39,532 bases of DNA from an uncultured Methylococcaceae bacterium (GTDB lineage: Bacteria; Pseudomonadota; Gammaproteobacteria; Methylococcales; Methylomonadaceae). The first letter of the stretch is position 1. Every line of letters begins with the position of its first letter. Location of the stretch: contig CAIPPE010000229.1 of assembly GCA_903866825.1 (NCBI GenBank), positions 1-39,532 of the forward strand, in the 5' to 3' direction. Below the pieces are notes generated by a model. That model had not been told where the DNA came from and made no database searches. It worked only from the letters and a program-made list of their open reading frames with translations. Shown in pieces: positions 1 to 39,532 of the stretch. Made by a program: the position numbers and the translations under genes.

Positions 1-2
1 AT

Positions 3-1771
3 ACAGCGCACACCAAGATCTACCCAGTCCGATTTTGCAAAGCAGTTGAGAAATGGGCCCCTCATGTAAGTCATCTCTTTTTACAAAAGTCCACCTTTAG
101 TATGTGAATGGCCAGCAGTAGGATTGTCAGGAGTTCATATCTTACCTACTTGATTGCCTGCATGAGGATCTAAATCGCTCATACGTGCAGCCAGCGAGTA
201 GTGTCTTTATAAATCCGATCCCAACTATCGATTTGGTTGCCAACGCAACAGGAATGTCCTTTGGTGGAGGCAAGCTAGAGGAGCCCAAGCCAGCTTTGGT
301 GCAGAATGTCTTCAAGGCACCTCCGAAGAAGGACGACAAGCGAGACTAGAGTGAGAAAGACGAGGAAGATGCCATGGAGGCCTGGAAGAACCATCTCTTG
401 AAGAACAAGTCGGTCATAGTAGATTTGTTCTAGGGGTAATTGAAATCTACCTTAGAGTGCCAAATCTGCAAGTTCAAGTCAACAAAGTTCGACAGCCTTA
501 TGTACCTAAGCGTGCCTATCGCAGGGAGACAGTACGGACAGGTCTAACCTACCCTTCAGCAATGTCTCGCTGAGTACAGCAAGAGTGAGGTGCTCGATGG
601 GCAGGACAAGTGGTACTGCGAGAGCTGCAAGAAGCATCAACCCGCCATAAAGAAGATCGACATTTGGAAGCTCCCATCGATCCTAATTGTGTGCCTGAAG
701 AGGTTCAAGTTCGCTGGACGCGGCCAATACACTAAAAATGAAGACTGTGTCTAGTTTCCCATGAATAATTTGGACTTGACTCCCTATGTGTCCTCTCCTT
801 AGAAGGAAAAACCTATGTATGACCTGTTCGCGGTGGCTAATCATGAGGGGAGCATGAACTAAGGTCACTACTTCTCATATACTTGGAATCATGCGAGCAG
901 AAATTGGTATTATTAGAACGATTAGGAAATAAAGTTGGTGACGAATCTCTCCAAGATAGTCTCTCCAACTGCCTATATGCTTTTCTATACAAAAACCTCT
1001 GCGCAGAACTTTTTCCGACAAACCCTGAGCATCCCTGATTTTTGGCCTCACGTAGTCGCGGCGGCAGTCCAAGTCGTAGGTACGGGCAAAGACAAAAAAT
1101 CAAAGCTCAAACGAAAGAAGGTCCGTGCGTAAATTAAAAACCTGCAAACCTCCATGGCATCCTTCGCCACATAGGGCGGCTTCAGACTCACTGCGGCCAT
1201 GGGTAAGGAAGAAGAATCCATGGGTGAGACAAGTTCCTTCGCTGCCCTTGCATAGCAGCTGGGCTCCTAGAAAGGAACCACGAATATCTTCTAAATTCTT
1301 CAGCAAAGCGTGCGCACCGTCGGCATGATGAGCCAAGCACACTCCAAGAAGTCTGGGAAGAAGAAGCATAAGAAGGCGAAGGAGGATGCTTCAGGAAAGC
1401 CCGAGTAACCGGCGCGAAATGGTTTCATGTTCGGAGAGTCAATGACCTCTAACTTTAACGCGGGGGCTGTACCGAACCCTAACAGTGGCGGTGCTGCAAG
1501 TATGGAGCAGCAGATGGCGATGACTAACTCGAGCATGATGATGATCAATAATGAGGTACACACTCACATCAGCAACATCTTTCTAAACGGGCCCGACGAT
1601 CAAACGATGCCTGAGTTCTACGCGAGACCCGCCAAGAAGAAGGGTAAAAAAGGGAAGAAGAAGAAGAAGGCCGAAAATGGAGGGGACTAGGCTGTCATCA
1701 ACTTTAACTAGCCGGTCAAGGAAGAGGACGAAGACGAAGAAAAGGATTTGCCCAAGTTCGGCTAATCATGA
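3..1771 (+). CDS. Ciliate ubiquitin-specific protease (USP family), 3' part, reassigned stop codons
   Basis: Deubiquitinating cysteine protease (peptidase C19), resembling the USP4/11/15 and USP2/8 groups. Exon 1 is 3-65, intron 66-100, exon 2 101-1771. Exon 2 reads for 556 codons only if TAA and TAG mean Gln; I count 19 such codons in frame and no TGA until 1769-1771. The code is supported by conserved sites: TAG at 119 is the third Gln of GQQQDCQEF (the family's QQDA.EF box), and TAA at 437 is the Gln of FQGQLKS. Zinc-type CxxC pairs lie at 458-469 and 617-628. The catalytic His is in NQGHY (His codon 866-868), and the domain ends at SPTAYMLFY near 963-992. The Cys box lies upstream of the window. 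A long tail follows, with Lys-rich runs near 1348-1385 and 1633-1672 and an acidic end. No bacterial gene is likely here: the frame is broken in codes 1 and 11. Family and code are seen directly; the exact orthologue is not resolved. Confidence 0.92.
66..100 (+). other. 35-nt spliceosomal intron in the USP gene
   Basis: The piece begins GTAAGT and ends TTTAG. Removing it joins the frame of exon 1 (ending ..EKWAPH) to that of exon 2 (starting YVNGQQQDCQEF) in phase 0, giving the usual USP run 'AP.(Y/F).G.QQDA.EF'. Without splicing the two pieces lie in different frames. Very short introns are common in ciliates. Splicing is inferred from protein continuity, not observed. Confidence 0.8.
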
Positions 1772-1798
1772 CCCTTTTTTCATATGGTGAGGTCGAAA
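1772..1798 (+). other. Short 3' trailer of the ciliate gene
   Basis: Only 27 bases separate the TGA stop from the first telomeric G. Such a minimal 3' non-coding region is normal for gene-sized macronuclear chromosomes of spirotrich ciliates. An ATG at 1784 inside it happens to be in frame with mraZ and would give a false 14-residue N-terminal extension to that protein. Confidence 0.7.
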
Positions 1799-1828
1799 GG
1801 GGTTTTGGGGGTTTTGGGGTTGGGTTTG
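1799..1828 (+). repeat. G4T4 telomere tract of a ciliate nanochromosome and junction to bacterial DNA
   Basis: The tract reads G4-T4-G5-T4-G4 from 1799 to 1819, then degenerates (TTGGGTTTG) to 1828. Spirotrich ciliates add G4T4 repeats at chromosome ends, with a double-stranded part of about 20 bp, which fits 1799-1819 with one extra G. The G-rich strand runs 5' to 3' towards the end, the correct orientation for a right-hand telomere. The bacterial mraZ frame starts immediately after. The break point is somewhere in 1820-1828 and cannot be placed exactly because TTG/TTT bases could belong to either side. Confidence 0.88.
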
Positions 1829-2293
1829 TTTCGAGGCATTAGTTCAATCAATTTAGACGACAAAGGGCGTCTTGCAATACCGACTCGTTATCGGGATGAA
1901 TTGCAGGAGTGCTGTGAGCGTCAATTGGTTGTAACGGTCGCAGTAAACGAAAAATGTATCGGTGAAAATGGTTGCTTGTGGCTTTATCCTTTGCCTGAAT
2001 GGGAGCGTCTTGAGCAAACAATCAGTCGTTTACCTACTTTAAATAAGATGGCAGTTAAGTTAAGGCGCTTTCTTATTGGAAACGCATCAGAATGTGAGAT
2101 GGATGGACAGGGTCGGTTTTTATTGCCAGACAAGTTACGAAAGTTTGCCCAGATGGATAAAAAGATTGTTTTGGTGGGACAGCTTAATAAATTTGAAATT
2201 TGGAATGAAGATGCCTGGACAGCCAAAGAAGCTGAATGGTTGAATGGCAATGATGATGAAGGTTTGGAAGAGCTAGAAACTTTATCTTTTTAA
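1826..2293 (+). CDS. mraZ: Transcriptional regulator MraZ, N-terminus at the junction
   Basis: MraZ is the first gene of the dcw cluster, a ring-forming DNA-binding protein with two AbrB-like halves that controls the cluster's own promoter. The conserved body starts FRGISSINLDDKGRLAIPTR and has the second-half motif ASECEMDGQGRFLLP; the length from the Phe is close to the family's roughly 150 residues. MraZ proteins normally begin Met-Phe-Arg-Gly; here the codon before Phe is TTG at 1826, which may be a true TTG start or the result of the join replacing an ATG. An upstream ATG at 1784 gives a frame of 169 residues, but its first 14 codons are ciliate trailer and telomere, so I reject it. The native promoter and the MraZ operator repeats are missing, replaced by ciliate DNA. 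Confidence 0.88.
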   Translation: MFRGISSINLDDKGRLAIPTRYRDELQECCERQLVVTVAVNEKCIGENGCLWLYPLPEWERLEQTISRLPTLNKMAVKLRRFLIGNASECEMDGQGRFLLPDKLRKFAQMDKKIVLVGQLNKFEIWNEDAWTAKEAEWLNGNDDEGLEELETLSF

Positions 2294-2309
2294 TACGGGA
2301 GTTTTGTTG

Positions 2310-3236
2310 ATGGAACATTTGCCCGTTATGTATGCAGAAGCTTTGCAGCAACTGGAGATTAAAAAAGACGGTATTTATCTCGATTGTACCTTTGGGCGAG
2401 GGGGACATAGTCAAGGGATTTTGGGTTTGTTAGGTCCGACAGGGCAGTTAGTTGCTTTTGATCGAGATCTTGAAGCCGTTAATTCAAGTTATGCAAAGGC
2501 ACTGTTAGAGGATAGTCGATTTAAGATTGTACATGGTTGTTTTTCACAGCTAGAAAGCGTTATAGAAAATAGTCATTTACTAGAGCAGGTAGATGGTATT
2601 TTGATAGATTTAGGGGTTTCATCACCTCAACTGGATAATCCGGAAAGGGGCTTTAGTTTTTTACGGGAAGGCCCTTTAGATATGCGAATGGATGGCACTT
2701 CAGGAATCTCTGCGGAGCAATGGTTAACGACGGTTGATGAAAAAACACTGGTCAGTGTTTTATTTGAATACGGTGAAGAAAAGTTTGCTCGACGTATTGC
2801 TAAGGCGATTATCGAAAGAAGATTGATTTCACCGATAACAACGACAACTCAATTAGCTAAATTAGTTGAAGATGTTGTTCCCATGAGAGAAAAGAATAAG
2901 CATCCTGCTACTCGAACATTTCAAGCAATACGGATTGAAATTAACAAAGAGCTGGATGAATTAAAAACTGTTTTAGAGCAGTCTGCCCGGGTTTTAAAGC
3001 CGAGTGGGCGGTTAGTGGTTATTTCATTTCATTCACTGGAAGATAGAATTGTAAAGCGTTTTATTAGAGACGAGTCCGGGGCCAAATTTAATCCGGGTAA
3101 GTTACCAATAAAAGAAATTGATATTGCCAAGGGTATTTTAAAAAAAGTGGGTAAGGCATTGAAAGCGGATGTCCAGGAAGTAAAGCAGAACACACGGTCT
3201 AGAAGTGCAGTAATGCGGGTTGCTGAGAAGGTTTAA
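2310..3236 (+). CDS. rsmH: 16S rRNA (cytosine-1402-N4)-methyltransferase RsmH
   Basis: SAM-dependent methyltransferase that modifies C1402 in the decoding centre of 16S rRNA; formerly called MraW. It shows the family run DCTFGRGGHSQGIL (SAM site), DGILIDLGVSSPQLD, GPLDMRMD, HPATRTFQAIRIE and VISFHSLEDRIVKRF, and is 308 residues, the usual size. I take the ATG at 2310 rather than the TTG at 2304 because GGGAG at 2296-2300 is then 9 bases upstream and the protein begins MEHLPVMYAEAL as in relatives. It lies 16 bases after mraZ, and its stop is directly followed by the GTG of ftsL. Confidence 0.95.
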   Translation: MEHLPVMYAEALQQLEIKKDGIYLDCTFGRGGHSQGILGLLGPTGQLVAFDRDLEAVNSSYAKALLEDSRFKIVHGCFSQLESVIENSHLLEQVDGILIDLGVSSPQLDNPERGFSFLREGPLDMRMDGTSGISAEQWLTTVDEKTLVSVLFEYGEEKFARRIAKAIIERRLISPITTTTQLAKLVEDVVPMREKNKHPATRTFQAIRIEINKELDELKTVLEQSARVLKPSGRLVVISFHSLEDRIVKRFIRDESGAKFNPGKLPIKEIDIAKGILKKVGKALKADVQEVKQNTRSRSAVMRVAEKV

Positions 3237-35308: not shown

Positions 35309-36784
<1,476 letters not shown>

Positions 36785-39116: not shown

Positions 39117-39377
39117 CTATGCGTACTGGCTTTGATAGGCTTCAATGGCGTTTAACTGAGCACTGTTTGCTTCGGCCTTTAAATATTTGATGATGTTTTC
39201 TAACGTGATAATAGCAATCACCGGCATGTTATAGCGTTCTTCCACTTCCTGAATTGCCGAACACTCACTCAAGCCTTTTTCTTGCCGGTCTAAGGCAATC
39301 AATACGCCAGCAGGAATGGCATTAGCGGCATTGATAATCTCAACAGATTCTCGCACTGATGTACCTGCGGTAATAAG
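39117..39377 (-). pseudogene. pyrE: Orotate phosphoribosyltransferase remnant, C-terminal part only
   Basis: The frame encodes about 86 residues matching the end of PyrE (orotate plus PRPP to OMP, pyrimidine synthesis): [52 protein letters not shown] full enzyme is about 213 residues. Upstream the frame meets a stop at 39378-39380, and the homology stops in the middle of the PRPP motif (normally DDVITAGT), so the acidic pair and the whole N-terminal domain are missing. It cannot be active. Either a deletion or rearrangement created it, or the assembly is wrong here. Confidence 0.82.
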
Positions 39378-39403
39378 TTAGTGTTGTTGTCGGTGGCGGG
39401 TTC

Positions 39404-39532
39404 TTAAGGGATAAATTTCTCTAAGAGATTATCCATAAAGTTCCAGCCTTGTTCTGAGCAATAATAATGGTTATTGTCATAGATAAGCAATCCTTCTTTA
39501 AGTCCGTTTGATAAAGCGGGCTCTAAACTATC
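39404..39532 (-). CDS. hemW: HemW-like radical SAM heme chaperone, C-terminal end
   Basis: The last 42 codons of a gene that begins beyond the window. The residues LKEGLLIYDNNHYYCSEQGWNFMDNLLEKFIP match the closing pattern of HemW and related coproporphyrinogen-oxidase-like radical SAM proteins (Gly-Leu-Leu ... Gly-Trp-x-Phe-hydrophobic ... Leu-Leu-x-x-Phe). HemW is a heme-delivery protein. The piece is short, so the family call is moderate. Its stop is 24 bases before the pyrE remnant on the same strand. Confidence 0.55.
   Translation of the reverse strand, partial: DSLEPALSNGLKEGLLIYDNNHYYCSEQGWNFMDNLLEKFIP

Follow-up and report, generated by a model that had tools for sequence, protein, structure and literature searches.

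The telomeric end of a ciliate nanochromosome joined to the mraZ locus of a Methylococcales-type bacterium in a chimeric contig

Features of the ciliate and bacterial parts

The window, i.e. the whole stretch of 39,532 nucleotides analysed here, is contig C229 of an assembly comprising 4,276,322 bases in 345 contigs. Its positions 1-1821 are eukaryotic, being the 3' end of a macronuclear nanochromosome of a spirotrich-type ciliate, and from position 1822 onward the sequence is chromosomal DNA of a Methylococcales-type gammaproteobacterium. The features of both parts are listed below, together with those of a second contig of the same assembly that covers the mraZ locus (C150, 8,777 bases; coordinates under L107).

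3..65, plus strand: USP exon 1 (partial), read in code 6; spliced peptide against USP15, E = 1.1e-8; begins within the UCH domain
66..100, plus strand: intron of 35 nt, GTAAGT...TTTAG; alignment spans the splice
101..1768, plus strand: USP exon 2, 556 codons, 19 TAA/TAG read as Gln; UCH, E = 8.9e-47
1769..1771, plus strand: TGA stop codon
1772..1798, plus strand: trailer (3' subtelomere), 27 nt
1799..1821, plus strand: telomere GGGGTTTTGGGGGTTTTGGGG and TT, G-strand running outward; telomere proper at 1799-1819, TT at 1820-1821
1813..1820, plus strand: 8-nt microhomology TTTGGGGT between the telomere and the native bacterial DNA
1822..1910, plus strand: identity with the end of C150 (L107), the carrier of the native upstream DNA, 89/89 bases
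1826..2293, plus strand: mraZ, native TTG start; MraZ PF02381, E = 7e-32
2304..3236, plus strand: rsmH (MraW), second gene of the cluster; profile match, E = 5.2e-108
L107 (C150) 90-150, minus strand: three GTGG units immediately upstream of mraZ
L107 480-830, minus strand: rnpB (bacterial RNase P RNA), 352.7 bits
L107 912-1784, minus strand: rsmI, profile match

Read in code 6, the two exons (3-65 and 101-1768) provide 577 open codons followed by the TGA at 1769-1771. These codons include 7 TAA, 12 TAG, 10 CAA and 14 CAG, with no TGA; a 20th TAA/TAG falls inside the intron and hence outside the coding tally of 19. Over 101-1768 all 556 codons of the USP frame are open in code 6, as against at most 93 consecutive ones in code 11, and the remaining five frames reach at most 142 open codons in code 6. 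Profile searches recovered the UCH domain (PF00443) in the translation of this exon, and the matches to solved structures, among the 60 of 97 that were listed, are chains named as various USPs, the best (E = 1.3e-56) being to chains named ubiquitin carboxyl-terminal hydrolase 15 (USP15). The spliced peptide aligns to USP15 with no gap at the splice, which supports the intron. The first UCH residue of the fragment corresponds to position 64 of 254 in the profile; thus, the fragment begins inside the domain and the 5' end of the nanochromosome is absent. The telomere, situated at the 3' end of the gene, is of the (G4T4)2G4 type with one extra G. A search of the genome found no second copy of window 1-1828 elsewhere in the assembly and no other contig that overlaps it. 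An initial annotation of this DNA had proposed a USP gene in the first 1.8 kb that uses TAA/TAG for Gln and TGA as stop, with a tiny intron, a 27-base trailer and a G4T4 telomere in the correct orientation, and all of these elements are borne out. It had also placed bacterial DNA directly after the telomere, correctly as regards mraZ and rsmH, though the boundary is at 1821/1822 and not at 1828.

Beyond rsmH, the list of open reading frames shows a series of long frames on the same strand, which the initial annotation had named the dcw cluster. The best named relatives of RsmH (the best 80 of at least 580 matches) come from uncultured Methylococcaceae MAGs (80% identity), Crenothrix polyspora (75%) and a Methylococcales bacterium (73%), and from the labels of these relatives the bacterium is probably a methanotroph or a relative of one. 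The genes that follow are open under code 11, which rules out an altered genetic code in the bacterium itself. The mraZ frame as called (1784-2293) is a hybrid that opens at an ATG of the ciliate trailer and continues in phase through the telomere; automatic annotation could accordingly give MraZ a spurious N-terminal extension in place of the native start, TTG at 1826.

The two parts also differ in composition, a comparison that had been suggested as a check on the join. The GC content of the USP exon is 48%, versus 41% from 1822 onward, and the codon usage of the ciliate part lies at a distance of 0.211 from that of the bacterial genes, with mraZ at 0.118 and 12 bacterial genes of the window, taken singly, at 0.057-0.105. 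The fit to bacterial composition ranges from -2.041 to -2.132 bits per base in the nine 200-base windows up to 1800 and from -1.935 to -1.999 in the ten after it, so that all nine fit more poorly than any of the ten beyond.

Two minor observations concern the bacterial part by itself. At 36001-36500 the GC content rises to 52%, against about 41% across this part, and the right end of the window (39233-39532) matches another contig, C225, in two pieces of 96% and 91% identity that lie about 390 bases apart in C225, which looks like a diverged repeat.

The native mraZ locus and the junction

When the assembly was searched with window 1829-3236, a second matching site emerged at positions 1-82 of C150, with 100% identity. 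The identity extends back to 1822, the two contigs diverging at 1821, and in the other direction it reaches exactly the end of C150; a match that stops exactly at a contig end has the form expected of a fork in an assembly graph. No exact overlap was found at the right end of the window or at the far end of C150, and the length of 89 bases is not tied to a k-mer setting. Upstream of mraZ, C150 carries, in order, the GTGG repeats, rnpB and rsmI. Its rnpB is the sole match to this RNA in the whole assembly; hence, C150 is very probably part of this genome and no stray. The GTGG repeats are presumably the operator bound by MraZ.

To place this arrangement among relatives, 24 other genomes of the genus were searched with window 1829-3236; 21 of them matched and 19 gave loci (L088-L106), with upstream DNA cut at about 1.5 kb and at least 1300 nt before mraZ in 15 of the 19. 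In 13 of these 15, rnpB lies upstream of mraZ on the same strand (at the other two, L104 and L106, it was not found in the 1.5 kb upstream), and 11 of the 15 show part of rsmI as well. Longer stretches (L108-L114), taken from seven of the same genomes and thus not independent of the former set, have rnpB in all seven cases and rsmI within 3 kb in six. A further set of 80 named loci, which takes in other orders and even betaproteobacteria and in which a diverged rnpB can be missed, gave an mraZ match in 78 and at least 1300 nt of upstream DNA in 68, with rnpB within 1.5 kb in 32 and rsmI within 3 kb in 21 of the 68. The DNA of C150 before mraZ can be aligned to that of relatives over up to 2 kb. 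Within the 65 bases preceding mraZ there are three GTGG units in C150, none in the window and at least two in every one of the 19 genus loci; counting all loci examined, 24 of 25 have at least two, the exception being L009. Of the 19 genus loci, 18 start mraZ with TTG and one, L094, with ATG. The arrangement in C150, not that in the window, is therefore the native locus, and its gene order is that of most relatives in the genus with enough DNA upstream.

The crossover between the two organisms lies at 1821/1822, directly after the microhomology at 1813-1820. At 1821 the window shows the T of the telomere and the native sequence a C, so that in register the window has GTTTTGGGGTT and C150 TAATTTGGGGTC, each followed by GGGTTTG. 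Of 92,932 bacterial positions (both strands, C229 from 1830 onward plus C150), 19 carry a telomeric 8-mer, all eight phases being counted, or about 2 in 10,000; a shared 8-mer exactly at the crossover is thus unlikely to be due to chance, with the register having been picked after inspection.

Affinities of the ciliate

Among the published ciliates that were compared, by way of their published descriptions, Halteria fits best, which gives a tentative affinity rather than an identification. As described (PMC7858049), the telomere of Halteria grandinella, [C4A4]2-3C4, is like the one seen here, in which one block has five G; TAA and TAG are read as Gln, as here; 59% of the introns are 30-40 bp long with a bias for AAG after GT (here 35 nt and GTAAGT); and the stop codon lies about 63 bp before the telomere, likewise a short 3' end (here 27 nt). 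Its GC content is given as 43%, compared with 48% for the exon here, and the species is said there to be very common in freshwater. Oxytricha trifallax is alike in its C4A4/G4T4 telomere and in an intron length mode of 37 bp, but differs in a GC content of 34.2% (probably of exons) versus 48% and in having apparently 210 bp beyond the stop codon versus 27 nt (PMC3558436); that Oxytricha also reads TAA and TAG as Gln, the same as here, is stated in the account of Halteria (PMC7858049). Nyctotherus ovalis shares a G4T4 telomere and short trailers, whereas its introns of 21-29 nt and its preference for UAA as stop are unlike what is seen here (PMC2633312), and it is ruled out because seven TAA codons stand in frame. 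Euplotes, in which UAA and UAG are stops (PMC2633312), is ruled out by its genetic code, as the initial annotation had soundly argued. The latter's assignment to an oxytrichid or stylonychid type of spirotrich holds for the spirotrich features, but the label has to be widened, with Halteria fitting at least as well as Oxytricha.

These features suggest that a spirotrich was present in the same sample, and the earlier conclusion that bacterium and ciliate were sampled together is reasonable; nothing shows a symbiosis. Halteria has been described as omnivorous or bacterivorous in the hypolimnion of a reservoir with Methylobacter among the typical prokaryotes there (PMC12366787), and their occurrence in the same waters makes the joint sampling of such a ciliate and such a bacterium unremarkable.

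Origin of the join

The identities of both parts, the crossover and the native contig for the same locus are seen directly in the assembly; the making of the join we infer. The contig almost certainly combines, artificially, DNA of two organisms from the same sample, by whatever route this came about, and the bacterium has not captured a ciliate gene, the join being almost surely an artefact. This was also the reading that the initial annotation had preferred, and it is supported by C150 with its native upstream DNA, rnpB and rsmI; an independent bacterial contig continuing upstream of mraZ had been named there in advance as counting against integration, and C150, with 89/89 identical bases, is such a contig. 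Given an artificial chimera, telomeric mispriming is the most likely route and a fairly probable one, the others being ligation, a template switch or an assembler overlap, judging from about nine bases at the join. The G-rich 3' strand at the end of a nanochromosome, terminating in ...TTTTGGGGTT, would anneal in vitro just before mraZ to the bacterial complement of TTTGGGGTCGGG, with eight paired bases and a terminal T:G wobble; that is, a telomeric strand with GGGGTT at its 3' end would be paired across TTTGGGGT, its last base forming the wobble. Extension of the mispaired end during end repair or amplification would then leave a T at 1821 in place of the bacterial C, and the assembler, meeting a fork at 1822, would have kept the ciliate branch on C229 and left the native branch as C150. 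Mispriming with a T:G wobble would account for the T at 1821 without a sequencing error.

Two of the other artificial routes have to be weighed against mispriming. In a ligation chimera, the nanochromosome end would have been trimmed in end repair and ligated to a random bacterial fragment that happened to start with GGGTTTG. Such an event would be consistent with the telomere ending after three G blocks and TT, close to the [C4A4]2-3C4 of Halteria (PMC7858049), yet it does not predict an 8-base microhomology, telomeric 8-mers being as rare in the bacterial DNA as noted above, and we regard it as unlikely. Alternatively, an assembler, scaffolder or gap-closer might have joined ciliate and bacterial contigs through the near-match TTTGGGGT(T/C), with no chimeric molecule ever having existed, as the short shared stretch exactly at the junction and the fork-like shape of the 89-nt overlap would allow. 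This would, however, have required the mismatch at 1821 to be tolerated, and the match, with 19 telomeric 8-mers among 92,932 bacterial positions, is not unique; moreover, eight contiguous bases are far under the overlap accepted by common assemblers. Hence, a join made by software is, in our estimate, distinctly unlikely. Mispriming and ligation differ in what they predict for other cases: the former calls for 3' microhomology to phases of GGGGTTTT at nearly all joins of telomeres to bacterial DNA, the latter for none.

A real capture would mean that the nanochromosome had been inserted ahead of mraZ in some of the population, i.e. that a subpopulation of this methanotroph relative carries the nanochromosome end, fused through its telomere before mraZ, beside cells with the native locus of C150. 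The contig is indeed continuous, the assembly does contain two forms of the locus, and one account of reservoir hypolimnion water names both Methylobacter and Halteria, a bacterivorous spirotrich (PMC12366787). Against this, there is a single junction, the ciliate DNA running to the contig start within an exon with no overlapping contig, and the telomere is intact at the join, as it would be at a free end, and counts 22 telomeric bases besides the extra G. The window form also lacks the GTGG repeats present before mraZ at 19/19 genus loci, and the gene would meet 19 in-frame stops under code 11 in addition to an intron. No USP/UCH match was found in 200 other genomes of the family, UCH at E <= 0.001 being confined to 1 of 201, the window's own, in this sample from a larger group. 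A second junction with the bacterial chromosome was not found in this assembly, and because of this and of the existence of C150 real integration was rejected; both the capture and the mixed population it implies are exceedingly improbable.

A chimeric contig might still mirror a physical association, if the ciliate hosted the bacterium as an endosymbiont. Ciliates with bacterial endosymbionts are indeed described from lake waters (PMC7969357, PMC13037464), but the genome, at 4.28 Mb, lies within the 1.7-4.8 Mb of its genus relatives and is unreduced, and searches of the bin for telomere, USP and kinesin sequences gave no other sign of a ciliate, with no second telomere and 0 matches to kinesin. 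The telomere pattern, allowing up to two mismatches, matched five times in the bin, three of them at this join, versus six times for a reversed-pattern control, and an exact telomeric 20-mer had no match in the assembly, not even at this join because of the extra G. The titles and abstract openings found in a literature search mention no methanotroph endosymbiont of a ciliate, and we consider an endosymbiosis behind the chimera very improbable.

A pattern search for a USP relative in viral contigs gave 10 matches, none of them a relative. In the titles and abstract openings found, a chimera of a ciliate telomere in a bacterial genome is not described, which is no proof of absence; for the reverse direction, the nanochromosomes of Euplotes focardii are reported to hold no bacterial sequences (PMC8455672).

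The feature is thus the end of a chimeric contig; it is no part of the bacterium's biology and adds nothing new to it. In metagenome-assembled genomes, chimeric contigs are known that likewise have a foreign segment at one end, a microhomology where the two parts meet and a second contig with the native sequence. The present case differs in that the foreign part bears a natural chromosome terminus, from which its origin can be read with unusual ease. The macronucleus of Oxytricha holds tens of millions of telomeres (PMC3558436), and if mispriming is the true route, abundant telomeric 3' ends of ciliates may be a recurrent and searchable source of chimeras. The contig provides a clean example of the way eukaryotic DNA can enter collections of bacterial genomes: although the bin has ratings of 98.93% completeness and 3.18% contamination, one of its contigs opens with a ciliate gene.
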